This document shows positions 381-33,500 of a DNA stretch of 39,228 nt, one piece after another (positions within the stretch are counted from its first letter, which is position 1; each line of letters begins with the position of its first letter). Below the pieces are notes generated by a model, which did no database searches, was not told the origin of the DNA, and saw only the letters and a program-made list of their open reading frames with translations. The stretch covers positions 425,201-464,428 of the forward strand of contig NW_003113961.1 in assembly GCF_000003605.2 (NCBI RefSeq). The letters are read 5' to 3'. The stretch is from Saccoglossus kowalevskii. Taxonomy: Eukaryota; Hemichordata; Enteropneusta; Harrimaniidae. The position numbers and the translations under genes are program-made.

Positions 381-509
381 AGTTTTCACACAGTGTACCA
401 GTATAACAGCCAGTACAGGTGCAGCTGTAAGCGTTACAATTTCCTGGTACACTCAGAGATCCACAATACCCTCCATTCAAACAGGGATTCGGCTGACATG
501 GGTTGATTA
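381..509 (-). CDS. Exon: EGF-like unit 64, last exon in window
   Basis: 129 nt, the longest single-unit exon, with eight residues between C3 and the loop Cys (GSLSVPGN). The peptide begins [15 protein letters not shown]. Eight cysteines. It ends at a GTAAGTAT donor, phase 1, so the gene continues beyond the left edge. Confidence 0.92.
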
Positions 510-3500
510 CTTAAAAAGAAAAAAAAACGAAAATGGTTTCATATAAGCATTCACTAAAAAGTAATAACATCATTCACTACAAACATGAATAAAAAAATTA
601 TATACTAGTTTTGTAATTATTCATCTGTCAGTGTAAGTCAGTTAAAGTGAGACATGTTACAATTAAACTGTAACAACTGGTGTGTCTGCATTCTGAATTG
701 AAAATCAGTGATACTTTCAAGATATCAGACGCAGTGCAATATGAAAAAGTTCTACAAAATTGAAATACATGTAAGGTTGAATGAGAATAGTACACAACCA
801 CACTAACCTCAGATACTACTGCTATATTTGCTCTATTAGAAGCACATGTGCTTACATGAATCACAGAGGTGTGTGTATGGTCAAAACAAATAATAATTTT
901 AAAGCGGGAGAGTTATCCCCTGTGAATGCGTCAGATGGCCATAGCATGTCATTGTTTACAAACAAGTGTCTACCTATGAGCCTTTGCATGTGTTGTTATC
1001 ATCCTTCTGGACTCCATTCCCCGCAAGTGCGCAGGTGACAACCCTCTCGCTTTAACTATCCAGTATACAATTCAAGTAACTGTAGGTTTACATGTGATTC
1101 TACTGGAGATGCATAAATAAAGCAAATGCGGTACCATAAACATCTCCACATAATCTGATGCTACACATCTGATACTCTGTAATCCATGATACTTTGCAAC
1201 ACTTTTGAAGCACTGCATTTCACATGATTGTATCTACACCATTCCTTATTTGGAGGTGAATGTCCAAATATAGAAAGCACACAGTTCAACAATGCTAATA
1301 TTACCTGCAACAATTTTACTAAATATTTGTTTGACAATTCTACCATTACATCTAACAGCATGGTAATACCACAAAGTATGCACTCAATCAGTTGGAACGG
1401 TAAAGAATCAAAGCAATCTGTCCCACCAAATACACCTCAGTCAATTATCTTTGAGGTTTTTATACAGTTTATAATATCCTTAATATAATATCCATATCCA
1501 ACTAAATCTGATAAGTAGGTTTATATTAATGATAGGAGGCAGGTAGAATAAATGATGAAGTTCACTTACGTGATTCACACCATACACTAGTGTAGCAGCC
1601 CGGGCATGAACAGGTGAAATCCGTACAGGAGTTTGGAACAGGACTACAGGTTCCACCATTTTGACACTGACTTGGCTGACATGGGTTCAACACTGAATAG
1701 GGAAAGAAAACAAGTAAGATTTTGCTTTGCCAATACACAGTGGATGTGCCACTTCAATAACACTTCCTCACAAAATAACTCTCTCTATATAATCAATAAA
1801 ATTGCAATTATTAATATTAATTATAAAATGCATTCACCTGAAAATATAATAATTGATTTGTGAATTAATAATACATACATGTTTCACAGTTAGGACCGGT
1901 ATAGCAGCCAGGACATTGACAACTATACGAATTACAGGAGCCTGCTTGAGCTACACAAATACCACCATTCAAACATGGGTTCGGAGAACATTGATCAATT
2001 CCTGTTATGATAGAAATAAATAACTTTAATACTTGCTACCTCCTACAAGTGTAATCACAGAAAGTGTGGGTATAGAAGACATGCATAACTGTGCGACAGA
2101 ACAAACTCTGGCTTTGTTATTTTAATAGTTGAACTACTGTAAATGTCCTATGCAAATGATAGGAACTCTACTAAAATATATTACAAGTAATGGTGCTTAC
2201 TAGTACTGCAGTCAAACCCAGTAAAGCATTGCTGACAATAACAGCTGAAGTCTGTACATGAACCTTGTTCTGGTATACAGAAACCACTATTCTGACATGG
2301 GTTCGGCTGACATGGATTCTGAGCTGAAAGTAGACAAACATTAAAAATAAAATTTGTTTATTCTCCTTTTACTCTTAACATCATATAGCATATTGAAATC
2401 AGATAAATGGAATCAAAGGCTTGTGGTCCACAGTGCGGGAAATCTACTGAAATCACTGATAATTGAACTCATACCTATTTCACAAGAGTCACCAATGAAA
2501 CAACCAGTACACTGACATGAAAAATCCTGGCACGTATTCTGGTCTCCTATGCAGATGCCACCATTCAGACATGGGTTACCATCACAGGGATTCACACCTG
2601 CAGAAAAAAAAATAATAAAATTACATAAAAACATGCAATGTATTCTTTTATATCTATGGTTTTATGAGAACACTTAAAAAACTGAAAATTGACTCAAATC
2701 TTTTCTGTTGGCTCCAAAATTAGGGTTCATTTCCAGAAATATTGAAGAGTAGGAGTGCAGAGAAATTTGGGCAAGAAAGTTTGAATGTGAAAGGGTTAAA
2801 ACTCACTAATGCACATTACAACATTACTTACGAATCGCACAAGTGGTTCCTGTCCAGCAGGTATCAGGGCATACACAGGAATAATCAGTGCAGGAACCAG
2901 CTCTCTGTGAGCACACACCAGAATTCAAACATGGATTTGGACTGCATGGGTTTTGTACTGCAACAAATTAAAACACATAATTACATGCACATGAGCGTAA
3001 CCTAGATTATATACATAAAATAAAAAACAAGGAAAAAAATTAACTGTTAAACAAGCACAGTAAATGTATGTGTTATGCCCATCATTGATCAATTTATCAG
3101 TTTTCAAGAACAAAAATGAAATTTGTTGAAAGCACTTGCGAGTGGTTCACTGATTAGCATATGGGGTAAACAATATAGAAAGTGGTAAGTAACTCTTACG
3201 TGTTTCACAGTTGTTTCCAGTATAGCAGCCAGAACAGATACACTGGTAGGAGTTACATGATGAACCACTCTTAACGCAGGTACCACCATTCTGACAAGGA
3301 GCTGCTTGGCATGGGTCAATCACTGTAAAGAAAAGGCATTATTCAAAATATGTAGCCTTATATGTTTTGTTTTTGTGTACAATTAAACATGGCTTTATTT
3401 TTGCCATGTTAGGCTTGGAAAAAAGTTGTCAGCTTCCTTATAAACTGATGGGGACACAGTTTTAGATCAAGATAGCTAATTCAGCTAATTTGTAGGCTAA

Positions 3501-6500
3501 TTTAGATCAAGATAATAGCTAATATGTAGGCTAATTTACCGGTAGATCTAGGGTAGTTAATTTCACTAATATATCAGCTAATTTAGATCAAGATAGCTAT
3601 CGGTAATTCAGCTAATGTAGGCTAATTTAGATCAAGATATAGCTAATTCAGCTATAATGTAGGCTAATTTAGAACAAGATATAGCTGATTCAGCTAATAT
3701 GTGGGCTAATTTAGATCAACTTATAGCTAATTTAGCTAATATGTAGGCTAATTTAGATCAATATATAGCTAATTTAGCTAATATTTAGGCTAGTTTAGAG
3801 CAAGATATACCATAGCTAATTAAGCTAATATGTCAGCCAATTTAGAACAAAGATAGCTAATTCAGCTAAAATGTGGGCTAATTTAGATCATGACATTTTT
3901 TTAAATATATTAATGTTCAGCATCATGCATTGTGCCAAATTTTCTAACATTAATATCATAACGGTTCTTTTGTATCTTCTAATCTTTTGTAATATTGCAC
4001 ATTAATTGAGGACTATTCTTACATGTTTCACAGTTATCACCAGTGTAGCAGTTGACACAAAAACACGTATAGGCCACACAACCCTGGAAATCAGGCTGGC
4101 AGTAACCACCATTTAGACATGGACTTGGCTGACATTGGTTGATGCCTGGAAAGAAATTGAAATACTTTATTTATACCAAATAGTTAGAATGGTAATTAAA
4201 AAAAAAAAAAATTTTTTGTTTATATACTCATACATACGCTGTTCACAGAAACTTCCAGTGAAGCACTCTGGACATGTGCACTGAAATTCAGTACAGGAAC
4301 CATCTAACGCAGAACATACACCCCCATTCAGACAACGATTCGGTTGGCAAGGATCAAGAACTGAAAAAACAAAACAATTGTAGACAATAAGTACAAATTT
4401 TATTATTATGTGGCTGTTTCAAATCAAGTCTTCAAAACATTATAATATAAATCAAAAAGCCCAAAGCTGAAAAAATAATAATTATGACATTGAAAAATTA
4501 TTTGTAATTGCCAGATAATAATAAATATAATTTCAGTATTTCAACATCCATACTAATGATCCATATTACAATTTCAGGGAACCACACCCACTCTAGCTTT
4601 CCTTTGACGTGTTGACATGTTGATAATGTTTACACCAAAGCAATAATGTCTGTTGCTTATGTGATAACTAAAGGTACTTACGTGTTTGACAAGAACCACC
4701 AGTATAACACGATTGACATTGACAATTGAAAGCAACGCAAGACCCAGCTACTTTAGAACAGATGCCGCTGTTTTGACAAGGATTGGGCTCACACTGATTT
4801 TTCACTGGTTAAAAAAAAAAATAGGTAAAAGCAAATGTCACTTTTACTTCATTAAATAATGTGAAATCTTGTAATGTCAAGTAATACACATTCATGTAAA
4901 TAATGCAATAATGTAATCGAAAGTAATGCAAAATTTTGTAATATCAAGTAATACATAATCTTGTAATTTCAAGTAATGCACAATATTGTAATGTCATGTA
5001 ATGCACAATCTTGTAATGTTAAGTAGCACACAATCTTGTAATGTCAAATAACACACAATCTTGTAATGCCATGTAAAGCACAATCTTGTAATGTTAAGTA
5101 ACACACAATCTTGTAATGTTAAGTACCGTAATGAACAATCTTGTAATGTTAAGTACCGCAACGCACAATCTTGTCAAGTAATGTAAAATTTAATTTAAGA
5201 GGCAGAGCAACATTTGTATTTCTGTGAAATCTTCATTTTTTTTTTAAATTTGCTGTAAGTGTAGTTACAATACTCAGTAGTTACCAATACTCTTACTTTT
5301 TGATTTCACAAGACATTAATTAAATGCTGCGGGTATGCTGACCAACACTTGTTGCCTGAGCTTGTCACTCAAATCACCTTATCAGTTACTCACTGATTTT
5401 ACATTAGCTAGACAAAAGCAGCAGATTACATTTAATTGCTGCTTTACTGACAATATAATACTCACATATTTGACACTCGTCACCTTCATAGCAGCTTGTA
5501 CACTGGCATGAATACACAAGACATGACACTTGCTGACAAAAACCATTATTCTGACAAGGATTTGGTTGACATGGGTTCAGATCTAAAACAAAAATTAATG
5601 TATTCATATTATAGTCGACATCACAATTAATAAAGTTGTTAATGATTACCGGTTTTCATTTTTTTTTTTACTTATAACTTGATTTGCTTTATTTACTGTA
5701 AAATACTGGAATTAATTTTCGCTGAAAAGATTTTGTGGGTGTTATGTATAGAATTTATTTTCACTGATTTTTTATAAGTTGAATGTAAAATATAGGAATA
5801 AAAGTATATTCACTGGATTTTATTTTCACTGAATCATTCCTTCAGCGAAAATTAATTCCAAGCGAAAACAGAGTATTTTACAGTAGTTCTTTGCTGTTAA
5901 CAACTATGAAAGATGGTAAATACTTCATTCCATATTCAGTTTAATTACCAGTTTCTTAAAGTTGCTAATTACATGTACCATTTCGTAAAAAAACTATGCT
6001 GTTTTTTTCAACAGATCATATTCGACATTGATAATTCACTTCCACATTGTGATACCAGAATGGCTTTGTGAAATAATGGGGAACTGCATCTATACAACAC
6101 AGCATTTTGATTGGTTAATAACAGGACATATTAGGTCAAAGGACGTTGTTTGCAGGTCAAATCATGCAAGAAAACATCATTGTGGAAATTGCTTTGCATT
6201 CAACAAAGAAGATAAGAGTGAAGAGTGATTTCAACTTAATGTGTTCCAACAGACTAATAATTTTACCTATGCGTGCAATAAACTCTTTAACAATGCTCAC
6301 ACTGCAAGTTATTGATTTTTGATGGACAATCTGCTTTCTGAAAACAAATACCGATATATATATGCACCATATATGCTATCTAATATTTTTGTAATCACTA
6401 ATTTTTACTTGACCACTTCAAAACTTCATCGTAATTTCTAAAACCTCGACTGTAATTTTTCAAAGTAGTTGAAATTTTACGATAGCATCACTAAGGCCAA

Positions 6501-9500
6501 GCAACTTTCACAGTATGCCTCACGAGTAAATAAAACTGGCTCTTCAAATAAATGAAAATAACCCTTACATGTTTCACAAATATTTCCAGTATAGCAGCTA
6601 GTACACTGGCAAGTAAAATCTGTGCAGGAACCGGGAGTTGGTATACAGACACCACCGCTTTGACAAGGATTTGGTTGACACTGATTCACGGCTACAAAGA
6701 TTAATGCAAACAATATTATTACAAGACACTGCGAAAAATATAGCAATGATAGAAATGTAAAAGTACAATTATAATATTAACCAGCCTTTGGAGTGAGCGT
6801 GAGTAACTACAGGCACAGGTGCATATCATTTGTACTTACGAGTTGTGCAGGTGAGTCCTTGGAAGCATTCTGTACACTGACAAGTGTAAAGTAAACAAGA
6901 TCCTGTCTGGGCAAAGCATACACCCTGGTTCTGACAAGGATTCGGAGAACACTGATCAATCGCTGTAGTATACAATATTGTAAAATGTTATTGTACAGCA
7001 GAAAATGATGAATTACTTCGAGAGTAAAAATTTTGATGATAAGCTATTAGGTCTATGCATGTCAACTAATAGAGAAAAACACATGTCATCTTACAGTAAA
7101 TTTACTGTCTAGACTTTGAACTGAATGTAAAGGGTTAAACAAGCTGAAAGAATTACCTGTAGCACACTCAGAACCCGTCCAACATTGCTGGCAGTAGCAG
7201 CTAAATTGATCACATGTGCCAGCTACCGGAATGCAGAATCCCTCATTTAGACAAGGATTTGGACTGCACTGGTTGATGACTGGAATGAAATATGGAAAAT
7301 GCAGTGGAATTTATGATAATGTTTGGTGTGGGAGGAGGGGGAATGGAGTACTGAAGATAAGATGGAAAGCTACAGGCATACAATAATGGTCTAAATCACA
7401 GCTGGTAGTAACAATAATTCAATTTTTTATAAAAACGATGAGAAATGTAGAAGAAACAAACTGCCACTGTGGATCAATCACTTGAGATAGAGTAGTTTTC
7501 TGCAAGTTTATAAGAAAGCACACTTACATGTTTCACAAACGTCGCCTTCGTAACAACCTGAGCACTGGCACATGAAATCTGTACACGAGTTCGCTATGGC
7601 AATACAGGCACCACCATTCAGACATCGGTTAGGTTGGCAAGGATTTTGAACTGTGGATGAAAAAAATAGAAGATAATTTATCAGTTTTGGAAAATTAATT
7701 TGAATAGCTTAAAAATAAAACAAATGCTCAAATTTACGAAACTTTCCAGATAATTCCATACATACAGCACTTGTCTGACTTACCGGTAATGACCATGCCT
7801 GACTAAGTACCAAACCTTCACCTTTGGGACATTTCTATTTTTGCGGTTATGTTTGGCAAAGCGCTCATCCCCTCAAAAATGCTCCGATTTTGACTGTCAA
7901 GTCACAAAATGTGATTTTTGATCATTGTTCGACTTTTCTGAATGCTGGTAATGAAATCTATATAATACAGCATAGACATCAGCCACCGTGTGTATGTGTA
8001 GACCACAGTAACTGTGCGCAAACTATGCTTCTATGCATCAATACTTCATTCCATATTCAGTTTACCCTTCAAAAACTACTAATTACCAGTTTTTTCAACA
8101 TATTTGGTTTTCCGTAAAGGCTTTCAGCAGGTGGTGTGTGGAAATAAAATAACTGAATATACTTACGTTGTTGGCAGTTGCTTCCAGTGTAGCATCCCAC
8201 ACAGGAACACTGATATGTTGTACATGTCAGTTGATTACAAGTACCACCATTTAAGCATGGATTCTGTGCGCATGGGTTTTGTACTGAAATAAAGAGAAAC
8301 ATCACTGATTCTTGGTAGACCTCGTAGTGTGCATATAAAGAAATCCACCTGAATTCAGGAATACCAGGCTTGCAGCATGTCAGGGAATGTGGCAACATAT
8401 TTTGTATAATGAGTTTCAGTTACAAATATTTTATCAGATTGCATTCAATTTGGCTTATGAGAGAGAAAGATGTATATCCAAGCATTACAACATTTCACAA
8501 TTTAATTGACAATCACATTAACTAAAACTAACGAGATACTATGAAATGCAATTACCCTGGTAGAATCATTTTTGTTTTCCACATTTTTGAACCCACCTGA
8601 CACAAAAGTTTCAGTGAAGGAATTGCTCATAAGCCAAGTGATTCTAAAAATGACAGCCTTTATAATAGACAAACTCATCTGAAGAAAATAATTCAGATTT
8701 ATTACTTTAAAGAATCATAACCAACTAAAATACTCACAAACATCACATGTAAGTCCAGTATAGCATCCATCACAGCTGCACGTATAGATAAAACAGGAAC
8801 CCTGAATAGGCTGGCATGTTCCGCCATTCTGACAAGGATTTGGACTACACTGGTCAAGCCCTTCAATAAAACACCATTTCAGTTAGATTACATGGTAAAT
8901 GATTTCTGAATAAATGATAAATCATATACTTTAAGTTAAAGCCAATGTTGAAAATAAAAACTTACTGGTTTCACAGTTGGTACCAGTGTAACATTGTTGA
9001 CACTGGCACTGATAGGTGGAACATGATTGTTGCAGGCAGACAGCACCGTTCTGGCAAGGGTTTGGCTCGCAGGGATTTAGGACTATCAACCGGAATATAA
9101 CGTAGAAAAAAAAAACATTGATCAGAAAAGAATGAATGTAATGAATGATTATTTTCCACTGGATCTTTGACAGAGATTTTAATGTATATCGTGAAAGTTG
9201 TGATGTTGTACAGTGAATTAAAAAAATATAAAAATCCAGGTGATAATCTTAATTTTTTGTAAGAAACTACAAATATGTTATGATGTAAATGTAATTAAAT
9301 TGTGTTACACTAAAAACCAAATACTGACACATTGTAATATTTATAAAGAAAATATATGTGACTTACGAGTCTCACACAGGTCGCCGGAGTAGCACCCACT
9401 GCAAATACACGTAGTCGCAACACAACCATTGTCAGATTGTTGGCAAAAGCCACCATTGAAACAAGGATTTGGTTGACATGGATTGATTCCTGGACAACAC

Positions 9501-12500
9501 AAAGAACAGGCATGAGTAATAAACTGAAAACTGCAGACCATTATGAATCAACCACAAAAACACATTATTTGAAGTATACACCTGATGAATAAGATAGTTA
9601 AAATGAAGTTTATTGTTCCACATATTATTTTGCATTTGTATATCCGATAATTACCATAAAACATAATATAATTGTTTTTTTATTCTAAAAGCAATAATGC
9701 TTGCAATGTAGCCAATTAGCCATTGATATTGCTGGTTAGGTGTACGAAACAAATTCATGGACATAGTTATCTCCTTAGACATCAATGTTAACAAATCCAG
9801 CCACCGGTAGCGTAGTCATTGTTGCATTGAACATATAATTTGTAGACCCGAGTTCAAATTCTATCTTAGGCTGAACACCAAAAGCAAGTCAACCGATACT
9901 CCATTGAGTGCACCACAGACTGAATGGGAAGGCCAATTTCATTCATTCACTATCGAATGTGACTTTGGGGGAATCTTGGTTAATGTCTACAGATACTTGT
10001 GATTGACCAGGCGTTCTTGATGCCAGAATAGCGCAATAAATTGCCATTATGATAAGAAGATGATCAAACAGCCATGTCACGTAGACCACAAAATAGCCTA
10101 GATATTTGACTTCTGAAGTTTGTATAGACCATGGAACTATAAACCCCGGGGTTTATAGTTCCATGTATAGACTTACTTGATTCACAGCTCTGTCCCGTAT
10201 AGCAATCAGCACATATACATGTATACTGGTTACAATTGGTGGCTTGGCAAGTAGCACCATTGAGACACCTGTTAGGTTCACAGGGATCCAGTACTGAAAC
10301 AAAAAACATGAATAACAAACCACAAATATTAACTAAAACATGTTAGTATAATCAATGTTATATTATACATATTATTTTTGTTGTTGTGCTAAAATAACAA
10401 TATCATGGCGTATGTGAATATTATAGAATCAGTATAGCAATTATTGAAGTTTGTAAAATGAATTAAAAAGATTTTCCTAAATGTCAGCTTTGAAATAAGT
10501 GTTCAAAAATATGTCAATGCCACATTGTTCATATCTTCCGTATTAGCTCCATACAGAATGTCTGTGTTCCTAACTGGAATGCTAAATACATTGATGCTTC
10601 TGAAGATTAGTGTAAATAAACTTTGAGGGATTCTGTAAACATACTTTAGGATATAAAACTGATTAACAGCACTCATTAGCATAGCCACACCTTCAATAAA
10701 CAATTGCCAGCAAGGGCAACTGAATTTGAATTTTTTTGAGTTTTGAATGCATTAAAAAGTTACTTGTTTTCTAAATGTAAGTTTTCCCTGGAAACAAAGT
10801 CATGTTACTCACATGTTTCACACATATTGCCTGTATAACAGCCAGGACAAAAACAGTTAAAGCCTGTGCAGGTACCAGCAATAGGATTACAGGTACCACT
10901 GTTCAGACATGGGTTGGGATCACACTGATTCATCACTGTAAAAATTAAAAAATAATCATTGATAATTTATTCTAAAAATTAGTAGTTGCAGTCATGTCAG
11001 AAACATTCATGAAAATTATAAATGTTAAACTTCATTTTGGGAATTAAAGATAATTTTGAAAAAATGTAACACTGATCAAAGTAAAATGTAGCATAGACAA
11101 TTGCATAACAAATCCTAACCCGTCTTTATCAGTCTGACCATGGAGCTCCATGGTCTGACCAGAGAATTATTAGTAAAAAGCTAGTTCAACATTGTTGGAA
11201 ACATTTTTTTCTCACGTAATATATCAATGTGACTGATTATTTTCATCAGAGCAAGGATGAATATGCATTTGATGATTTTTGTTTTAATTAGTGTGACAGC
11301 TAGTATGTGGTACTTACATATTTCGCAATTGGTACTGGTGTAGCAGCCTGTGCAATAACAGGTATACAACACACAGGATCCTTGTACTTGCTGACAGATA
11401 CCACCATTACGACAAGGACTGGAGTCACATGGATTGATAACTACAATAACAAAGAACATCAAGAATTATAAATTATGGCTTCAAAAGTAAAATACTGTTC
11501 GTACATGAAGAATAATTACACTTAGTGTCTTTGACGTATAAAGTGAAATGTCTCATATTACAAAATGCAGCAGTTAAAATATTCATAAGATATCTGGGTC
11601 AGAAGTTTCCTGCCAATTATAACCAAAAATTGTCATGAAGTCTGTGAAGTACATACAAATACTAACCCTTTTCCCCATAAACTATTTGTATATCTGCATT
11701 GATATATTGTTATATATTCATACTAAATTATACAACTATTTTTTTCATTGTTATTAATTTTGTTTTGTAGTTATTATAGTGACCTTACTGATACTGTAAA
11801 ACCATATAATTTGTTTTGAGCAATTCCACTGTGTTTTAAGTTCACAACTTGGCAGGAAACAATGATTTTTATTCTTTTTTTACATGTTTATGTAAATTTC
11901 ATTTAGCAAGTTTTACTAACCTGCAAAAATAGCAAAATCAAAAACTAGTGAATAATTTAATATTTACAGTAAATCAGTGTTGTGTCAATAAATTTAAAAT
12001 ATATATATTAATATATATTCCCAAGTCAAGGATAAATACACATGTGATAACAAAAAAATATTCTTGTTTTCTCTTTGTGTATCTTAAAGGGCGGTGGTCG
12101 TCACGCCGCGTTCTGTTCGATATGGGACTCATAGCAACGTATACAACGCGTGTAAAATACATTGTTTATTTACATGAAATTCAAACACACGCTGCTTGGC
12201 GACCTACGCGCTTTAATTGGATTGTGGGAAAATCGATGTTTATCAACACAAATGTCACGCATGTGTGGGGAGGCGACCACCACCCTTTAATGTGATTGTA
12301 ATTGAAGAGAATTAAAATTGTCCATTGTGTGAGTGCGAATATATAAATGTACCGACTTACATATCTCGCAGCTTCTACCGGTGTAGCATGTGGGACACAT
12401 ACAAGTGTAGTCGACGCAGGAACCGGGTAGTTTGGACACAAGTACCGCCATTTGCACATCGTGAACCCTGGCAAGGATCTTGAACTGTTATAGGTAAAAT

Positions 12501-15500
12501 ACAATAAATATTGTTAAATACTGTTCAACAATATACTGTAAAACACATTGAAATAGCTACATGCCATTTTAGCGAATTTGGTTTAATACATGAATTAACA
12601 TATTCTTAATTTATCTAAAGTGTCAACAATCTCATTGTGATAATATACTTTATTCTAAATTAGCAACATCTTGAATTAGCAAAATTACAGGTTATCTAAA
12701 TTAGCTAAAATGAGATGCTAGCTAAAAAGACGTGTTTTACAGTAGTTTAAATGCATCTGAAACCTGACAAACCGATGAGGCTACCCGGGAATAATTTGGC
12801 CATTAAATCAGTTCCGTTGTGGCAGTCCAGTGTGACATATAGGGAATAAGGTCAGTCACACCTCCAATCCCATGATTAACATATATCTTGGCCGACTTCA
12901 ACCATTGGCCGAGTTCAAAACTGGCCGAGTTCGGCGGACACCGATCAGTCAATTCCAAGTAGTCGTGGTTTTCAAAAAGTTTGGGTCTACCTCAGTGATG
13001 TGCACGACTCGGTCGGTCTATGTACTATACCAACAGCAACAGATCAAACATGGGATACGGTATGTCTGAACGTCACAACACCACAGAAATTGAAGTCCCT
13101 CGTTGTCTCTTATTTTTACCTCTACCCCCGGGGCGGTTAAGGAAGACCAAAAACACTTTGACACAAGCAACCTCTAATGATTTTCGTCTATCAGGTAATA
13201 TAAGACCTAATTTCTATGTACATCTGGCAAACGCACGAGCATACCTTGAATGGAAAACCTACGAGAATGTTTTTACCATCTTCGTCAAAATATAAGTGCG
13301 CATGCGTTGTTATATTCTATCGTCAACGAAAAGTAGCAACGCACGAGGAGTGTTTTGATTGGTCCACATCAAGGTTGTGAAAATTGCGGGTTTTTCGTTT
13401 CCTGTTTGAGCTGTCGTGTCTACACTATTGTTACCGAACGCTTACTCACGAGTACTTAAAAGTGACCTACTGAACTTTTGAGCAACATAATAAATTCAAT
13501 TCGTCAATGAAATAAAATAATCAGGTCAATTTTTCTGTGGAGCTGACAGCTTATCTTTATTATTTTCATGATTTTGCATAACATTATTCTAACCCTCTTG
13601 CCACAGTCCCTCTTATATATAGAGGGACTGTGCCCTGGGCTAAAAGTCCTTATATGTCTGGCGAGTAACCCCTACCGTGGGGCACGGTTGGTAACCGATC
13701 ATGGGCGGAAGTGTTTTGATTTCAGCGGAAAAATCAATAATCCACCAATTTAGCAAGCTTGTAAACTAACTTTGAAGTGAAGTGAAGTAATAGGTTTACA
13801 ACCAACAATATAGCAACTTACGTGTCTGACAAAACTGGCCAACATAGCACCCAGAACACTGACAGTTAACGGCCGTGCATGACCCGGGAATCTTCGAGCA
13901 CGTGCCTCCATTTAGACACGGAGCTGAACTACACTGATCGATTTCTGTAAACAACAATTAGACACAACAGCAATGACCAACAAGCAAACTCAGTAAGTGC
14001 GAAGTTTTCCGTGAAAAAAAATCGATAATTTGGCCAATAAACGGAAATCAGTATCTTATCATAGTCCATCAATAAAGGGTGGGCGTAAGTATTATATTTG
14101 AATACAGTTTACCAAACTACGAATGTGTGTTTGTTACTTACCTTGTTCGCAATTGTTACCAGTATAACAACCCTGACAGAAACAAGAATAAAGGGTACAT
14201 GACCCAGGCGAAGGCTGACATATGCCGTTATTCTGACATGGGTTTGGAGTACACTGGTCAAGTCCTGTAACACAGTAAAGGTGGAATTACGTCAGATTAT
14301 TATTAGTATTTAATAGTTGTCAGTGAACTGATCGTTACTAATTGCTGCTTTTTTCAATTATTATGAGGGTTTTAAATATTAATTAAGTATTCTTACTTGT
14401 TTGGCATAGCTCTCCTGTGTAGCAATTTTGACACTGACACTGAAAATCAGTACAAGACGTCTGTATACATACACCACCATTCTGACACTGATTTGGTTGG
14501 CATGGCAACATCGCTGTGAAAAAGAGATATTTATCGAACATTATACAACACTCACAGGTTTATACACGGACACAATTTAAATATGTATGTACATACATAT
14601 GTATACCTTGTTCGCATCTGTCTCCGGTGTAACAGCCCTGACACTGACATTGGTAGTTCGTACATGAGTTTTGTACAGCAGAACACTGGCCACCATTAAG
14701 ACACTGATTTGGTTGACATGGATCCAATACTGGAAATGACAAAGAATAACACAAATAAGCATCATGCCGAGATATAAACGGGTATAAACGGGTTTGTATA
14801 ATAGCAATTATAAAATGAAAGCGTTACTCACATGTTGCGCATGTCACACCAGTGTAACAACCAGGGCACGTGCAAGAATAACTTGTACACGAATCTTGGT
14901 TGCACACACCATTATTGAGGCATGGATCAGGACTACACGGGTTGAGCACTGAAATCGAATAACAATAAATATCATTGTATAATTGGTTTGTTCGTGTTTG
15001 GGAGAATATCGTAACGGTATTACTATTGAAATGTGAACTCACGTGTATCACAGGTAAATCCGGAGTAACATCCGGGACACGTGCAGCTGAAAATGGTACA
15101 GGATCCCTGGAATGGCACACACGTTCCCCCATTGCTGCATGGAAAGCTTGCACACTGATCAATTCCTAAAATTATCAAATGCTATATTAGAACTAATGTT
15201 CTGGAATATATGTATATTGATAACAAGTTAAAAAATACAGCGTTTGTGTATGTCGTATGCCTGACAAATACCATATAACACAAACAATTCGTAAATCAAT
15301 TAATCAACTTAGGACAAACGTTGTGATAGGAAAAAACACTATAAGAAGGAATGGAAGTTGTGAATGATACTTACGTGTCTCGCATTGTGTTCCGGTGTAG
15401 CACTGTTGACAACCGCACTGATATTGCGTACACGTTAACTGGGTACAATATCCACTATTTTGGCAGGGGTTTGGTGAACATGGGTCGAGTCCTGTAACAC

Positions 15501-18500
15501 GTAAGACGTTAATTATAAACTAGTCACATTGCAATTGATTTTAAAGGTTAGCTATAACCAGTGGCATTCAAATAAACAAAAAACACGAAACTTTACGAAA
15601 TGCAAACAAGGTCGATGATCGTCCCAGAACATGCGTTCGAATTTCAGGTAAAAATAACAATACATTTTACCAGCTGTGCATACGTGGCATGGGACCCATA
15701 TCAAAAACATTTTAAAAGCATTTTATTTCAAGTAATACTTTAGGGAAGCGGAGGCATATTGGGAGTCTGTCAATATACGACGTTATAATCTGTTGCATTT
15801 TGATAAACTTGTTGAAAACAAACGTAACTTATCTCGTATGATGACATTATTAGGTAATTATATATTGTAAGACGATGAAAAATGCGAAAAAAACACGATA
15901 ACATTAGACGACAACACTGCTCAAACAATGAATCTTGCGCACTTACGTATAGCAACGGAGATTGTAGTCTTACTTACGTTGTTCACATAGATCACCGGTG
16001 AAACATGTAGAACACGTGCAGGAGAAATCTGTGCATGAACCTGGAGTTGCAGTACATATACCTCCATTAGCACATCTGTTAGGCTGACACGGGTCCATCA
16101 AGGTCTCGCAGGAGTTTCCCGTGTAGCAACCGACGCAGTCACAGGTACGCGACGTGCAGCTCACCTGCGAACATTGGCCGTTGTTGAGACATGGATTGGC
16201 CTGACATGGGGCTTGAACTGGAAGAAAATATTTCACATCGATGAATTTAGTCTATACTGAATTGTGTTGTGTATCCGATTACAACAAATTAGAAACTTAA
16301 AAATGCTTCTGGAATTAATCGTACGCATCAATAACTCAAAACCGACGCATGCGCGTTGGTATTATATACTTACGCGTTTCACAGTTTTGGCCAGTATAAC
16401 ACCCAGTACAGGTACAGCTGTATGCGAAGCACGACCCACCGACATTTTGACAAACTCCGTTGTTCTGACACGGATTGCTACCGCACGGATCAATTCCTGT
16501 TGAATCAAGCAATAACAAAGGTATCTAGTACACGTAATAATACAGCTGGCTGTAACTAGCATCTATTATTTGGTCTATGCATGTGTATACTATTATTGCG
16601 ATAATTGGAAAATAATTATATTAATAATAATTATAATTCGGGTAACAACTACTCACTTGTTTGACATTGATCGCCAGTATAGCAGGATTGACAACTGCAG
16701 GTATATGCCGAACAATCACCTGATGACTGGATACAGAATCCGCTATTCTGGCACGGATTCGGTAAACATGGATTCACGTCTGTCAATGACAATGATTAAA
16801 AATTAACATGTTTATTTTCCAACTATTCCACTAACAGTGTCATTTGTAACACTGTACCGTGTGTCACATACCAAAAAGTATGCACGAAGACAGTAAAGCG
16901 ACCGATACGCAGCGGAGGTCAATGCGACGGCGTACTGTCTGAGTGCACACTTTGCGGTATCCTCGTAATAACCTTATTATTAGAGAACGCTCATTTCCTA
17001 ATATGGTAGGATGAAGATACCCAGTGAAATACCGCAAAATGATGGCACGCTGTATCTTATGGCGTTACGATGACAGATGTATAATAATATGTTTTATTAA
17101 GAATGGCAAACTTACATGTTTCGCAGTTTGGTCCTGTAAAACAGCCTGTACAACTGCATGTGTAGTCAATACAGGAGCCAGCAGTGGGATTGCAAACACC
17201 ACCATTCAGACAACGACTGGGTTGACACTGGTTTACGGCTGCACATAGTAAAATAATGCAAATATTACTTTCAAAACGTTTTTAATTGTTTTAGATAGCT
17301 TCAGAACAATAATGTGTTATACCGTACATACAACATGTGTTTAAAAATACACGTTCTATTACGTACTGTAGTATTATATTTAAAACGGTACCAGCAAACC
17401 CTGAAAATAGTGACCATATTTATACCTATGTAGCTACGAAATCTACACCCCGTATTTATATCAAGCGACAATAAATGCATATCAAATGCAAAATTTGATG
17501 TTTTACATGAACAGCTGCCAGACATAAAATAGTTATAACTATTAGTTCAACATAATTATAAAATAATACACATTACATGATACTAATCGTTATACAACAT
17601 TTAAAATGGAATTTTTTCAATCAATCTCTAAGATCAAAAGTAGGTTGGTTTGTGCCGATGACAACATGACACATGTGAGTCGGACCCATAATTTACAATG
17701 CCTAAAATTCTTATAGCAAGTCCATCTCCGTCACTCTCTACGGAGACTAGGGGAAGTGGCCCAGGAATGTACATCTAAGGCATACTTACGGACATTGCAA
17801 TTCGACCCCGACCAGCACTGAGCGCACGCACATGTGAGTGACACACAGGAATTGGCCGTCGCCAAACACGTTCCCCCGTTCTCGCAAGGATTCGGACTAC
17901 ACTGATTCAGCACTATATAGAGAAGAAATCACGATGGGTAAAGGATGTAATACAAATAGATTTACATCACGTATAGTAATATTTTTATGACACATTTGGA
18001 TATTTACATACTATGACGTAACAAACATGCCAAATATAGTAAACAAAGTGTTAGCATTGTGTGAATGATACGAATGAAGAGCACTACTATTACAAACATA
18101 TATGCAATCATCTGACGCCCAGATTCTATTCTATATGATATCATAGCGTATGTATGGACGCGTGAAATGTACGAGAGTGCTTGCTAGGGGAGGCATTTGA
18201 AAGAACACAGAAAAGACGAAAGCGTAACAGTTGGAAATGATTAGAAGAAAATGTTGTAGATATCCTCGTCACTTATCTTACCTGTAGAATTAAAGAAGTC
18301 CTATATATACATTGAACAGCAGAAAAAGAACAAGCACTAAACGTGCTCATGATTGTAAATTATCATTGAAGATTGGAGAAGTTTCTGTGTGTTTTTTTAG
18401 TTAACAATTATGCATAATTAAGCACACAGTGGGTGATTAAAAAGGCTCAATTAAAGGGTGGAACAAAGGCAAGGAAATCACCAGATGCTACAGCCCGGCA

Positions 18501-24500: not shown

Positions 24501-27500
24501 GACTTTTTGGAGGTCATACACTCAGAAAGTACCAGGATGTGTGACATTTTGAAGGTCATACAGCCAGAAAGTACCAGGATGTGTGACCTTCGGGAGGACA
24601 TACACCCAGAAAGTACCAGGATGTGTGACCTTTGAGAAGACATACAACCAGAAAGTACCAGGATGTGTGAACTTTTCGGAGGTCATACACCCAGAAAGTA
24701 CCAGGATGTGTGAACTTTTCGCAGGTCATACATAATACCCATGGCGTGAAATTAATCTTCAACCAAATAACAGTAAATCGTATGCTTACGTGTTTGGCAG
24801 TTTTCTCCGATGTAACATCCGGAACACGAACAAGAGTAACTGGTACACCCAATGGCATTACAGGTTCCCCCATTCAGACAAGGAGTATTTCCACATGGAT
24901 TCAAAACTAGGAAGATAATAAATAATAGCTTAAGTTAAAGCCGTATGTACTAATAGATAGTTAACGTATTACCAGTCACATTTTGCTGTGAATCCGAAAA
25001 CTAACCATCCCGATACAGCCATTCCACGTTACGCTATACTAGCAAAAACTGGTTATTAAATGTCTATACATACAACACAGGAACAAAAAATACTTGCAAT
25101 ACAGTACATATATAAACGTGTATTACTTACGTGTTTCACAGTTTTTTCCAGTATAACACCCCACACAGAAACAGCTGTACGTTAGACAGGTTTCCTGATT
25201 GCATGTACCTCCATTGAGGCACAGTGAAGGATTACATGGATTCTGTACTGCATAGTGCATGGAAGAAATAAAAATGTTGGCATGTTAGTGACAAGATGAT
25301 AATCGTGATAAACGTATATTACTCATATCACGTGACAATGTGAGTTGTACGATATATTGTTACCTCAACTACATTTTGCCTAGACCTATACGAATGAATT
25401 TCAACTCACGTATTTCACATCGATCCCCTACGTAACATCCGGTACAGGTACACTGATAAGTTGTACATGTCAGTTGAGTACACATGCCAGAATTTAGACA
25501 TACATTTCCCGAACATGGATTCAGTACTGAAAAAAAACATTGCCAATATTTCAACTGCTTCGAACAATGTCAAATAATATTAATGGGGGACGATAAAGAC
25601 GATTATGATATTCTGAAAACATATGGATATATGAGAAATTAGATAATTAACGTAATTGGTAAAGGTTATTTCACTTACGCGTGAGACAGTTGTTACCAGA
25701 ATAGCAGCCTACGCACATGCACTGGTAATTCGTACATGAGTTTGCTACCTGCACGCAAGTTCCGCCATTATAACACGGTGAATTCGAGCACGGGTCTTGT
25801 ACTGAAAATAAAATAGAAGATATTGGGAGATAATTACTTAGAAGGAGATTAAATTAACGAAAAATGAAAGCGAGGCTCTATGTCCACCTGAACTAGTTTA
25901 TTCAAGCCGGTTTGATAATATGCTCCAAAAGTTGTTACATAAATATTAATTAAAAGATACGTCACCAACGTTTGTGCTTTTACTCAATAGATTTTTTGTT
26001 GGAAAAAAACTGTCCGATAAAATGTTGGAACAAACAATTTGCACTGGAATCTATTTTTCATTTCATAAAACTAATAATATCCATTATTATTTCTAATTAT
26101 ATAAGTTATTGACCCCATGAATGGCATTATTTTTTTCACCAAATAAAGCCTTGAATTATAGACCAATATAGAGGACGTTATTTAGGTTATCGGCCACTAT
26201 GGATGGCATTTGTATATACAACAATAAATGGCATTATTATTTTTTCACCATATAAAACCACTATGCAAGGCATTATTTATGTTATTGGCCGCTATGGATG
26301 ACATTATTTTTTTTCACATTATACGTTATCGACCACGACGGGGGATTTCATCGGGGTTTAGTTAAATCATAACAGTACATTGTAAACATCGAGTGACATG
26401 TTTTAATGGTACCCATGCAGCTGCATATATTACAGGACAGGTATACTCACATGTTTCGCAGTTTACCCCGGTGTAGCAGCCGGTACATGCGCACTGGTAC
26501 TGTGAACACCCTATCGCATTGCATACACCCCCATTGCGACACGGATTTGTCGAACATGGGTCAAGAACTAAAAGTAAAAAAAAAAAAAAATTGAAAAGGA
26601 TGCTACAGCGGTAATTGAACAAGAATACATATTTAATGCAGATTGGACATAATAGTAAAATAAATGATATAAAATAATGTAAAGATAACGACATCATAAT
26701 GTTTAATTACACTTACGTATCTCACAACTGCTTCCAGAGTAACATCCAGCACACTCACAGTATCTGTTTGTGCATCCAAGATTTGTACACGTGCCGCCAT
26801 TTAGACATGGTTGGGTAAGACATGGGTTGAGTTCTGTGAATCGAAATTAATAAGTGTCACGTATACATTGACGTATTAGAAGAATAACATGCGTTTGAAG
26901 TAAGTTACCTCTTATAACATGTATGCGTGACGTATCGGGACAAATGAAAAATAATTAACAGTACACAAATTAAAATTTGTATATACATATTCAATAGTTG
27001 AGCTCTAGCAAAACACTGAGACATTGAGAATATATTAACTGTTATTTTACTAAATATTCTCCATGACATATATGAATTATATAATATAATAAAATAAAAT
27101 AATAAAATTTGTAATCAATTATCATAGCAACTTACCCGTAGCGCAGTTGTCTCCCGTGTAACATCCAGAACAACTACATCTATACTCGTGTACAACTTTC
27201 TGTGATACAGAAACCCCCATTTTGACACGGGTTGGTATCACATGGATTTAAAACTGCAACATAATGCCAACGACAAAAAACAAAAATTAAAAACAGGAAT
27301 AGATTCAATGTGTTCCCCTATTCCCCTATGTTAGTTATGTCCGGGTAATACTCACAGTTACTGCACCTCTCCCCTGTCCAGCATCCATAGCACTGACATT
27401 GGTAGTCTGTACAGCTCAGGGCAGTACATGTTCCACTGTTAAAACATGGGTTCGTTGGAGAGCACGGGTCGAGTACTGGAAGGCAACAGTTACAAGTAAG

Positions 27501-30500
27501 TATACCACACTGATTATGCGTCTTAAAAAGACGAGAAGTTCGAGAAGAATTTCTTTGTGACTGGATGCTAGTCCCATAATGTCGTTAACATCTAGTCACA
27601 AATGTTTTTTTTTTCTTTTTTGCATTTTATTCAATACAGCTGAACAAGAATAAGACGTTACAATAGGAGAAGAATGCCAATCACGTTGGTAACGAAGGTT
27701 ACGATTTCGCCCGGGAGGGTACTCACATACGATAAAAGTAAGTTTATTTAAGCCAAATTTGGACAACAAAATCTGGAAATTACACAATTTTTACCCAATT
27801 TAGTCCGGAAATGACGTCATTAAAAATACCATTACTCGCCAAAAAATAAAGTTTTTTCATACCATATTTCTCCCGTTTTTTTTATTCGAGTGCCGGGCGA
27901 TTCAGTGATAACAAAGGCTAAGCAAAAAAGTAGTAGATGTACTAAGAGAAGATAACAATGACATAGTTCGTGAGATTTGCGTGTTACTGGTGGAGGTGCA
28001 AGCAATGCCGGTGCAATATTATTTACTGTAGGTGCCAAGATAAAATATATATACATAAACGACCTATTACGTTAAAATAACTTCAGATCAGAAGTAACGC
28101 ATGTAGTAGAATGGTAGTCACTGGTACTTTGTAATATGCCGTAATGAAAAACGCCCGAGTCGTCGCGTTGCGTCATTTCCGTTACGAATCCCATGCAACG
28201 CACGCTCTTTGTTTAGAAGAATTGTAAACGCATGCTGCGTCACGTGACGAAGACAATTTAATGACAGTAACGGTTTTACTGTTTTATGTCAAGTTCTGAA
28301 AATGAGCTAAAAGAATTGAAACTCGTTTCCATGGAAATTATATCACTATATCATCCCTACTTGAAATGTCGGCCATTTTATATGACAATTTGTACGTCTG
28401 TGAAGTTTCTCAGAATAGTGAAAGATAGATTACTAGTCTGAGGAAGTTCAAAGTGCAAAAAGGTCGGTGACCCCTAAATATATCTGGGAATTTCAAAATA
28501 TATTTATGTGAATCTTTGTTATGCCAAATTTTAAGGGCAGTGGTCGTCGTGTCGCGTGTAAACTACAAGTTTACGACCATATCTGATCATTCTTCTCTAA
28601 CATATCCCGGGGTAATGTAACTACCATTCTCGCTGTAACATGCGCAACGACACGTGAAGTGATTTTGTCACAATAGATGGTCTGTTGACGGCTTTAAACT
28701 CACACTCCTGGCAGTTGGTGCCGGTGTAACAACCGAGACACGAACACTGATATGTATTACAAGAGGTGGCCATGCACGTGCCGCCATTTATACACGGATT
28801 AGTCGAACATGGATCAAGATCTGTAAACGAGGACATATTAAAAAGAATATCACATGCAAATTATGAAATATGATAACCAATGCAGAATAATGCATTAACA
28901 TAAAAAACGAAAGATCTACCTACATTCTTTCGTTTTTTATGTGCAAGCATTCTGATTGGTCGACATGCAAACATTTACATAATACGTTCTTCAAGCCAAT
29001 GGCAGTGAAGACACATAATCATGCATAATAAACACTCACGGTAATCGCAGTTCAAGCCAGTATAACAACCGGCACAATTACACTGATAGTCAGTACACGA
29101 CGTTTTTACGCATGTTCCCTGGTTTAAACACGGGTTAGTAGGAAAACATGGGTCCAGAACTGAAACAATCGTAGATATATCGTGTTATCAAAAGTATCAT
29201 TATATTAAAACGGCATGTATTAAACAAATAATAAGCAATCTTTTTACCTAAAATGTAAAAAAAAATATAACAGTTCCAAAACCGTTTACATAGGTATATG
29301 TTATGTGATCATGAGTAATTGTAGAAAATTAAACGTCTACTATGTTACAAGTAGTCAGTGTTGGGTGCTAATTTAATTAAATGTTTATTATCAGTAGTAA
29401 ATGCATTCCGACTTATTGTTTATTATTGTTGATCAGAGGTAGATATTATTGGATGCGTTGTCAGAACAGAGAACAATCTGAGAGAATAAATACTCGCTAA
29501 TGAATCAATGATAAATTATCGTGCTATAGCATAAGAAAAAGTTTATAAACAGATAAATCGGTGGACGTGTTTCTAGTACGATATGCATTCCATTAGGATA
29601 AGGTTTATATTCAATGTATTATTGCATATATAATGATAAGACAGTCACATTACTTTTTTTCGGAGGAAATTGTAGAATTTTATATGAAGCAAATGATCCA
29701 AAGGAATGTAACAATGACACGCATGCGCATGTCCAATTACAAGATGATGTAATAGACATGCATTTATATATACGACCCATATGAAGAGATTGCCCATACA
29801 CTGCATGCTCGGACCTTTCGAAAGTTTATTTTTTTCTAACTCAAAACAAAGGTACAATATAGTAAATTTCATTACATGGCAACAATGTACCATGAACACG
29901 TGTTTGGAAGAGGTGTCTGGAATGTTTTCTCATAATGTTGATAATTTACATAATTTAACATATTCATTGTCACATGATCATATACCGTACAGGTAGGCAA
30001 CCTTAAACCTTATCGTCTTTAGAGTAAAACTAAAACACGCAACACTAGCAATTAAAACCACAGAAACTAACATCGCCACTGACAACTAAACCGTTATTTG
30101 AAAGCATAACCACTATACGAGTGCGGGAAAAACACACACACACGCGCATGCGTAGTTGCTTGCACAGCCATGCTCGTTCCCAAGAACTGATATCGAATTT
30201 CGATGACACCCACTGCCTATAAGAATCATCGACATAATGAAATGTTAGTCTCCATTTTATATCTTACAGGCAGTTGACATCACCTAAATAGCAAATGAAC
30301 ATAAGCATTAAACTAAAATAATCAAAAAAGGGGTCGTTACATGATCATAGCATTTACAATTGATTCAGCTTTTATTTGGTAGAAAGAATAATTTATGAAA
30401 ATATTGAATAAATAGAGGCAGATGATGATATAACGACGTTTTACATTTACTGAATAACTATATGCAAGACTATTATAATGTTAATATTATTACATGTACT

Positions 30501-33500
30501 GCAGTAAGTGCCTGTGTAACATCCACTGCATTGACAGGTGTAATGAGCACAATTGAATTGATCTCGTTGACATACGCCACCATTTTGACATGGACTAAAC
30601 CGACATGGATCGATGTCTGTGTTTGATACCGATATGCAGCAATTGTGAATGAATTAAAAGTAAATGACGTCACCAAAGTTAAACAAACATATAGTTTAGT
30701 TAGTCACCATACATGCAAAATAACATTTTTTTTTCTAGACATTTACATCCGTATACTGGGATTACTACCATAATTCATTTTACTACGTAGATAACGTATA
30801 CTGGTCAGTTTTTATCTGTGATGTAATATTTAAGAATATATCTACATATTTTTAAACACCAGTTATATATTTCAACATCGAAAGAAAACACGATGCTAAA
30901 AATACTTACATGTTGCACATGTCTGCCCAATATAACAGTCGAGGCAATTGCAGGTATATTGCGTACAAGAACCAGGGGTTGGGATACACGTGCCGCCATT
31001 TTGACACGGGTTGTTTGCACATTGGTCCAGTCCTGCATTTTTGCAATAAAAAGGTCATTTTTATTTTCCATATATATTAATGTTACGTAGTTACACAGAT
31101 GCCGACAAGTCTCGCGAACTAAGACCGATGAGGGCGTGTGATGTATAATTTTATTTAATAACTTTATTTTTACTTGAGGTTAGTTTTTTCTTACGTATTT
31201 CACAGTTTGTCCCCGTATAACAGCTGGTACAAATACAGGAAAACATCTGGCAACCTCCCATAGCAATGCAGGTACCACCATTCTGACATGGAGCGCCATC
31301 ACACTGGTTGATACCTAACAAACAACAAACAAATGGGTACATATTACATACAATGAAAACACCTTAGTCACCACGTTACACGTTAGTCAGCACTGAGACA
31401 GGTTCACATACCATTCTGATAATATTACGTAGTACTAAACTAATACTTACGAACGTCACAATATTGTCCAACCCAACAGTCACTGCACTGACAGGATACA
31501 GATAAGCAATTGTCTTCCATGATGCAAACACCATTAAACCCACACGGGTCATTTACTTGACATAAATCCACGGCTGAAAATGACATGCATTACAAATGAA
31601 TGAAAGATGCAATTGATAATAAAGTTATGATATATGAAAGAGTGTCGCCCCCATCTGAGATCTCTTCAATAATAACAAAAGCAGGGTGTTAATCCCAGTG
31701 ACTTCGTATCAATCACGGCAAATGATGTATACTACGTTTCGACTACAACCTAACTATTCAATCATTGGTGTAAACCGGACGACAGGTTACTCATGCCTGT
31801 ATCGAGCATTTAACAACATCTGTGACTGGTATATGTCAGAGGTGAATTAGAAAACTGCTTTCTGGTGTGGGCACTTTAAAAAAAAATGTCACATACACAA
31901 GTTCAACCGGGACCAAAGAAACATTCTAAAAATTACTTACGCGTTTGACATTGCGCGCCTTGCCAGCAAGACGTACATTGACATGTGTATTCACTACAAG
32001 AATCTGCGACGCGGGTACACGTGCCAGCATTGAAGCAGGGATTTGGGTTCACGCATTGGTCCTCAACTGTAGAGACACAATATCCATTAACACATTAACA
32101 TGCTCATAATTCGAACTCCGATTGCCAAATCACTATTGATAACAGTCATAATCCGTTAGCGATTGTTTGATCAGTGAATTGATGATGTGGCGAAAACGAA
32201 GTTGTGAATGAATTTCACTTTTTTTCTGGTCTCCCTATAATATTACTTAATTTTATTGACATATTTCTGGACTTTTTTAGTTTTTAAAAATTACAGAACT
32301 TACATGTCTCACACAATACACCACTATAACATCCCACACAATTGCACTCAACGTTCAGGCACTCTGGCAGCATCTGACACACAGCGTTATTCAGGCAGGG
32401 ATTTTGATCAGAGCACATGTCATAGGCTGAAAAATAAAATTTAAACATCAGTTAATTGTTATCATTTAAAATGTTTGTTTCTGTCTGTTCTACTTAAAAC
32501 AATTCGTTTTTTTTTGAAAAAAAACACAGTTGTAAGCGGTGACAGCAACAACAAAGTTTATGTCGAACACTTGAAATTATGCTAATGACATCTGTGAATT
32601 ACCCGGATGTCCATTTTACTTACCTATTTGACAAGTAGGTCCTTCCCAACACGGCATGCATGCACACTCATAGTCAACTCCATTGGGCATCACCGTACAT
32701 GTGCCACCGTTCCTACACGGTAGCATGAGACACGGATCGAATCCTGTGAAAAGATAGTTATATGTGGGATATCATATATAGAATGAATTAAAATGCATTA
32801 AAGTAAGAATAACTATTCATATAAAAAAGACAATCTCAGTTGTATAACATTTGCCAATGGTCAATTTTCAATTCTATATTCAAAAGAACAAGTCACTGTT
32901 TCCATAGGAACAAGTCATTCTTTGTCATTTGACAGAGCCTGGAAAATTATCAAGAATTTGTAGTACCTTTACCATTTTTCGCATTTTCACAAGTAACATT
33001 TTTAAATCTCATTTTCGTCGTTGCAATAAGTGACGATAACATTGATTTTTGTTTACAAATAAGTAAATACCACATATTTTTTCATGTGACATGTACCCCT
33101 TATTTTCTCTATCTCTTTATTTTTGGTGTTTTCAGTGACTGCACGCACTTTGTAGTCGGCCTTACCTGTCATTTCCCAGTTCAGCCGCCAACCACGATGC
33201 TCAATCGTTTTGTCCGTCAGCCACAAGATATACACAGCGTCCCCGGGTATGGTGATTGGACTGGGCGCCTCAAATCCTTCGTAGACGTATTGCAGTGGGT
33301 CGGTCATATTCTCAAACATTAACGGTTGGTTGTGAGTAAGACCGGGACCGATATAGAGTTCATCTTTTTGAACTTCTATTTCAAATATATCGGTGCTAAA
33401 CCAGAATTTAATTGATGTGCACCCTGGGATGTAAAGCAGGTACAAAGTTCTATGTCGTTGAAAATAATTATTTGGGTAGTTGGGTGATGTAAAATATCCT

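Follow-up and report, generated by a model that had tools for sequence, protein, structure and literature searches.

The eight-cysteine array

The stretch of DNA considered here (the window; 39,228 nucleotides) comes from the hemichordate Saccoglossus kowalevskii and covers positions 425201-464428 of contig NW_003113961.1, here called C759, in a genome of 572 Mb. The flanks of the window on C759 were also searched. The minus strand of the window carries a long tandem array of EGF-like units, most of which have eight cysteines. The six ordinary cysteines are numbered C1 to C6, and the two extra ones are called Cx and Cy. Cx is found at C4-5, with four residues between it and C4, and Cy at C5+3, where it replaces the Gly of the CxxGYxG motif. 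The array is represented in the window by the following features:

388..32738, minus strand: window part of the eight-cysteine EGF array, 64 units in 63 exons (pattern and profile searches)
32631..32738, minus strand: most N-terminal unit of the array, with seven cysteines; Cy is present (codon 32649-32651) and the hairpin Cx is absent
15985..16206, minus strand: two units in a single open frame; the six-residue linker, ETLMDP, can be read in the genomic DNA
16126..16128, minus strand: in the two-unit exon, Cy codon (C5+3) of the first unit, predicted to pair with 16033-16035
16033..16035, minus strand: in the two-unit exon, Cx codon (C4-5) of the second unit, predicted to pair with 16126-16128
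27143..27248, minus strand: unit interrupted by an apparent frame shift between its halves
12368..12479, minus strand: unit interrupted by an apparent frame shift between its halves

In the window, the minus strand has 62 matches to the unit pattern and the plus strand none; for the strict eight-cysteine pattern, the numbers were 61 and 0. Together with the two broken units, this gives 64 units, which occupy 63 exons because the frame at 15985-16206 carries two units in one exon. A first-pass annotation, made from the letters alone, had reported the same counts and the same sites for the two extra cysteines, which it placed in the C3-C4 and C5-C6 loops; the two cysteines do behave as a conserved pair. 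It had given eight cysteines to essentially every unit, which holds for 61 of the 62 intact units; the most 5' one (32631-32732) has seven. The end points that it gave are right within the window, but the array continues far to the left, as far as contig position 341598.

Searches of C759 with a profile made from 61 window units and a small profile of eight mostly six-cysteine units yielded an array of 189 units: 170 with both extra cysteines, four with one, 12 with none and three that are broken. The third broken unit, at C759:414508-414617, is also split by an apparent frame shift, and in all three cases assembly error is indistinguishable from real damage. Since an 18.6 kb stretch of N lies inside the array, it is likely to contain more units. 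At about 41 residues per unit, including the linker, 185 units correspond to some 7,500 residues. The exons are in phase 1-1, with an AG 11 nt before C1 in 182 and a GT 7 nt after C6 in 183 of 185 cases. Between C6 and the following C1, the linker, as deduced from the exon ends, is six residues long at 181 of the 184 listed junctions. In the two-unit exon, it is likewise six residues, although that junction was scored as undefined in the count of 184.

By sequence, the array units are EGF modules. PF00008 was matched by 59 of the 62 window units at E values up to 1 (the best being 1e-05), with a representative unit scoring 20.6 bits, under the cut-off of 21.5, and a profile of the array matched the Notch EGFs in the PDB at 3.9e-33. 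Among the 169 C759 units with both extra cysteines, Cy is located exactly at C5+3 in 167 and is shifted by an insertion in the other two. It is followed at C5+4 by an aromatic residue (Y, F or W) in 165 units, and in 164 the six ordinary cysteines have regular EGF spacing (CxC at C4-C5) with a Gly at C5+6. At C5+3, PF00008 has a Gly before the aromatic, and the array units have Cys there instead. The 13 Pfam families listed at E up to 1 for the 62 window units include neither the laminin-type nor the integrin-type EGF, in keeping with the earlier statement that these units are not of the laminin type. A single match to NCBIfam was judged to be due to chance.

The 170 C759 units have a mean identity of only 0.38 outside the cysteines, yet the extra cysteines are retained; together with the uniform exon structure, this shows that the pattern did not arise by chance. 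Identity is flat with distance along the array (0.38-0.41 over lags 1-20) and no block period is visible, which argues against recent block duplication. The Cx codons on C759 are TGT in 134 cases and TGC in 35, while the Cy codons are TGT in 86 and TGC in 83; the third base has drifted while the extra cysteines stayed. Ordinary EGF units from eight other loci in the same genome had either extra cysteine in 0 of 31 cases. The eight-cysteine unit is likely to be a new variant of the EGF module.

The consensus for O-fucose, C2xxxx[ST]C3, occurs in 56 of the 169 C759 units with both extra cysteines, and that for O-glucose, C1xSx[PA]C2, in 25.

Pairing of the extra cysteines

Pairing was scored in 248 units from five arrays: the long array on C759, one on each of contigs C808 and C3252, and two on C4507. 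For the smaller arrays, the cysteine states were tabulated manually. Both extra cysteines are present in 222 units, neither in 15 and only one in eight; three broken units were excluded, leaving 245 that could be scored. The eight single-cysteine units are spread over four of the five arrays, and each is either at an array end or adjoins one. On C759, the first unit has Cy only, while towards the other end a unit with Cx only (350315) is followed by one with Cy only (349981), one with Cx only (349650) and then by six-cysteine units. The last array unit on C808 (155322) has Cx only and is followed by ordinary six-cysteine EGFs. At the first C4507 locus (613001-632000), the first unit (626626) has Cy only and is preceded by an FN3-like exon, which scored 22.2 bits against a cut-off of 25, and the last (615107) has Cx only and precedes a transmembrane-like exon. 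The final unit of the second C4507 locus (151732) also has Cx only. Loss of one extra cysteine from the interior of an array was not seen among the units examined.

If Cy of unit i is paired with Cx of unit i+1, none of the 238 junctions contains an unpaired cysteine. The first-pass annotation had instead proposed a fourth disulfide inside each unit, joining its own Cx and Cy and stabilizing each unit alone. Such a bond predicts equally well that 222 of the 245 scorable units have both cysteines and 15 have neither, but it leaves eight cysteines unpaired, four of them on C759, and all eight are of the kind and in the place predicted by pairing between neighbours. Because of these eight units, the bond within the unit was rejected as the best reading, and we consider it rather improbable. 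The reverse order, in which Cx of unit i would pair with Cy of unit i+1, leaves 12 cysteines unpaired and was also rejected.

When the kinds of the eight singles are reassigned in place, only one of the 256 possible assignments, the observed one, leaves no cysteine unpaired. When the states are shuffled among positions, this outcome is reached in 0 of 20,000 shuffles, with a minimum of 27 unpaired. The units at the array ends might alternatively be old, eroded or transitional copies whose cysteines match in kind by luck. The location of all eight singles at or beside array ends would suit such a process; that a perfect fit is found in a single assignment, and that no such loss was seen in the interior units examined, makes it highly unlikely.

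Another option is that the extra cysteines join rods of separate chains side by side into a network, or act as redox or metal sites. There is a precedent in the teneurins, in which an extra cysteine in EGF2 and EGF5 of an EGF array is reported to make likewise a covalent link outside its module (PMC9058538). In that case, however, there is one free cysteine per module and the bond connects two chains in a covalent dimer. Links between chains do not predict that the first array unit should lack Cx and the last should lack Cy, and this option is highly improbable.

The reading that we favor, and hold to be quite probable, is that Cy of each unit would be bonded to Cx of the next one, making a disulfide ladder that replaces calcium as the agent of rigidity.

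The isolated pair of a Cy-only and a Cx-only unit beside the end of the main array (C759:349650-350797) may represent a minimal or intermediate state of such a staple.

The joint between units

Published structures of tandem EGFs offer a site for a bond between neighbours. In these structures, the aromatic residue between C5 and C6 of one domain contacts the major hairpin of the next, where it packs on I, L, V or P plus Gly (PMC3415683). This packing site has been named the glycine-aromatic motif (PMC3906135). In the array units, Cy takes the place of the motif Gly, immediately before the aromatic. Cx aligns to hairpin residues of the NOTCH1 EGFs. In one repeat, this is the Val of 'IDDVAGYKC', while the residue differs in the other repeats. 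An alignment of the two-unit exon to a NOTCH1 pair of known structure has no gap in the linker. The alignments place both extra cysteines on the known packing surface between tandem EGFs. Since the aromatic and the hairpin that it contacts belong to different domains, Cx and Cy of a single domain would be at its opposite ends, which also speaks against a bond within the unit.

The calcium-binding motif was defined as [DNE]x[DN][EQ] before C1 plus D or N at C3+2 and was tested on C759 only. It is present in 0 of the 169 units with both extra cysteines, compared with 5 of the 12 six-cysteine units in the same gene. The staple seems to have taken over the role of calcium in fixing the joint.

Other arrays in the genome

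Further arrays were sought with a W-type motif pattern and with a protein query, in which 150 of 890 candidates were scored. These searches led to C3252, C808 and the two C4507 loci. The W-motif pattern had 24 matches compared with 3 in the control: 21 on C759 and one each on C3252, C1559 and C593. The match on C1559 was discarded, as the 10 kb examined there show no EGF. There may be further arrays beyond the five.

C3252 is a contig of 13.1 kb with 25 units, 24 of them found by the strict pattern, all of which have both extra cysteines, and the contig ends on both sides. At C3252:8059-12822, the linker is six residues long in the first 14 units and seven in 10 of the last 11, the other being irregular at C1. 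This switch looks like the joining of two sub-families of units.

Taken together, the linkers in the arrays other than C759 have six residues in 36 of 53 cases and seven in 17. The constant six-residue linker was therefore dropped as a defining feature, and a staple, should it exist, would have to accommodate one more residue.

After each of the short C4507 arrays, a transmembrane-like exon comes next on the same strand (regions 613003-615107 and 149002-150493). At the first locus, it is followed within about 2 kb by a DEG/ENaC-like N-terminus, which matches PF00858 at 80.1 bits, and by an LDLa domain at 43.8 bits. At the second locus, a similar stretch, SWHGLPQIAR, is seen by eye, with no Pfam match to the channel family. 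A speculative and on balance unlikely extension of these observations is that the stapled array is a distinct, calcium-free covalent ladder that tolerates the gain or loss of whole exons, as any two units would fit together, and that, if the C4507 array and the DEG/ENaC part belong to one polypeptide, the rod would act as a built-in lever on a mechanically gated channel.

Layout of the C759 gene

Upstream of the array on the minus strand, the window contains two more features:

33056..33568, minus strand: CUB domain (PF00431, 40.3 bits, cut-off 21.4) in an open frame immediately 5' of the array
34070..34201, minus strand: six-cysteine EGF-like stretch 5' of the CUB domain, recognized from Cys spacing only, with no Pfam match

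At the 3' end, the C759 array is followed by about a dozen ordinary, six-cysteine EGFs and then by an exon encoding a transmembrane-like helix with a basic tail, RRKKKDRE (contig 340442-340639). Further along the contig, C759:265201-323017 is entirely N. A division into two genes at the gap 371957-391032 was considered and rejected; the gap is mostly N, so that a single gene is the simpler reading.

The gene seems to encode a giant single-pass membrane protein, whose topology is a prediction, and the window would cover its N-terminal part. The order of the predicted protein seems to be an EGF-like stretch, a CUB domain, the very long eight-cysteine EGF array, about a dozen ordinary EGFs, a transmembrane helix and the basic tail.

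A predicted covalent ladder

The stiffness of tandem EGF rods is attributed to calcium together with a small hydrophobic contact. In these arrays, a disulfide appears to have been placed on exactly that contact and the calcium ligands dropped, a solution repeated some 170 times within a single gene and used at further loci of this genome as well. Each unit would keep the EGF fold with its 1-3, 2-4 and 5-6 bonds. Cx, at the hairpin tip (major hairpin), would point towards the unit before, and Cy towards the unit after. The array would thereby become a covalent ladder with one staple per joint, fixing the packing that calcium secures in tandem calcium-binding EGF (cbEGF) rods, and the array units would have lost their calcium ligands. 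A stiffened rod, as the first-pass annotation also had it, is a likely outcome, but by bonds between units and not by a bond inside each of them.

Three Notch EGFs span 100 Angstrom (PMC3415683). At about 3.3 nm per unit, the 170 units seen would make a rod of roughly half a micrometre. With the protein anchored in the membrane and the CUB domain at the tip, the rod might serve as a long, stiff, calcium-independent tether or spacer; its stiffness, topology and role are what we infer from the sequence.

Several points weigh against this picture. The bond between Cy of one unit and Cx of the next is deduced from sequence pairing and not from a structure, mass spectrometry or a model. There are only eight single-cysteine units. 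Three of them are clustered together, and the C4507 arrays appear to be paralogues, so that the eight are not independent events. If array ends merely erode, the position of the singles is explained without any pairing, and only their kind counts (1 in 256). Six units in which one extra cysteine is displaced were counted as having both: in three, Cx is at C4-4 or C4-8, and in three, Cy is shifted by an insertion. The 238 junctions are those that remain after exclusion of junctions across assembly gaps, at contig ends, beside the three broken units and in C808 141001-150000. In unit 10043 of C3252, a Cys is missing from the usual C1 spacing, and this contig may belong inside an assembly gap of one of the other arrays instead of being a separate array. 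The six-residue linker is no rule for the family, as the seven-residue linkers outside C759 attest. Finally, the C759 exons were joined into one gene across the N gaps by their strand, phase and order rather than from a transcript.

If the proposed pairing is true, these arrays are a natural test of what rigidifies EGF arrays and provide a design rule for extendable covalent protein rods. They would also serve as a warning that extra cysteines in EGF repeats need not pair within the domain. The short C4507 array, with eight units, is small enough for expression.

Comparison with known systems

Laminin-type EGF modules have eight cysteines, as do the array units. Unlike in the laminin type, the extra pair of the array is at C4-5 and C5+3.

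The fibropellins (uEGF) of sea urchins are secreted proteins that combine a CUB domain with a long EGF array and a C-terminal avidin-like domain. The CUB domain directly 5' of the C759 array is a point of similarity. The array differs from fibropellin in its eight-cysteine units and in its transmembrane-like end, which speaks against an avidin-like end (none was seen, with no avidin profile run 3' of the array).

The array resembles the rods formed by Notch1 EGF11-13 and the fibrillin cbEGFs in its EGF fold, as judged by sequence, in having the linker length of the NOTCH1 pair and the aromatic at C5+4, and in the contact with the hairpin of the next domain. It differs from these rods in having an extra Cys pair on that interface and in the absence of the calcium motif from the C759 units that carry the pair.

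The closest known system in terms of use is octovafibrin, which is found in the egg threads of the octopus, in which it tethers the eggs. Like the array, it is a long, unbroken run of EGFs without a calcium-binding signature, which in octovafibrin is load-bearing. However, it is reported to have 29 six-cysteine units with three intradomain bonds and C-type lectin ends, and no extra pair (PMC10336842).

The array profile also matched the tandem EGF units of the mussel foot protein Pvfp-5beta (PDB 7qab) at 1.8e-14. This protein has twelve cysteines in two units that form six bonds, all of them within units (PMC9314366). A link to mussel adhesives was rejected on the grounds that these bonds are confined to its two modules.

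Among the open-licence papers listed by the searches, none was seen to describe this extra pair in an EGF array or a bond linking one EGF unit to the next, which is weak evidence of absence.

Minor features of the window

Two other frames on the minus strand of the window lie outside the scheme described above. The frame at 13021-13173 is a Cys-rich open frame between array units that is not EGF-like by eye and may belong to a mobile element. The frame at 4997-5173 contains repeated 'TLQDC' words and is probably an intronic minisatellite.

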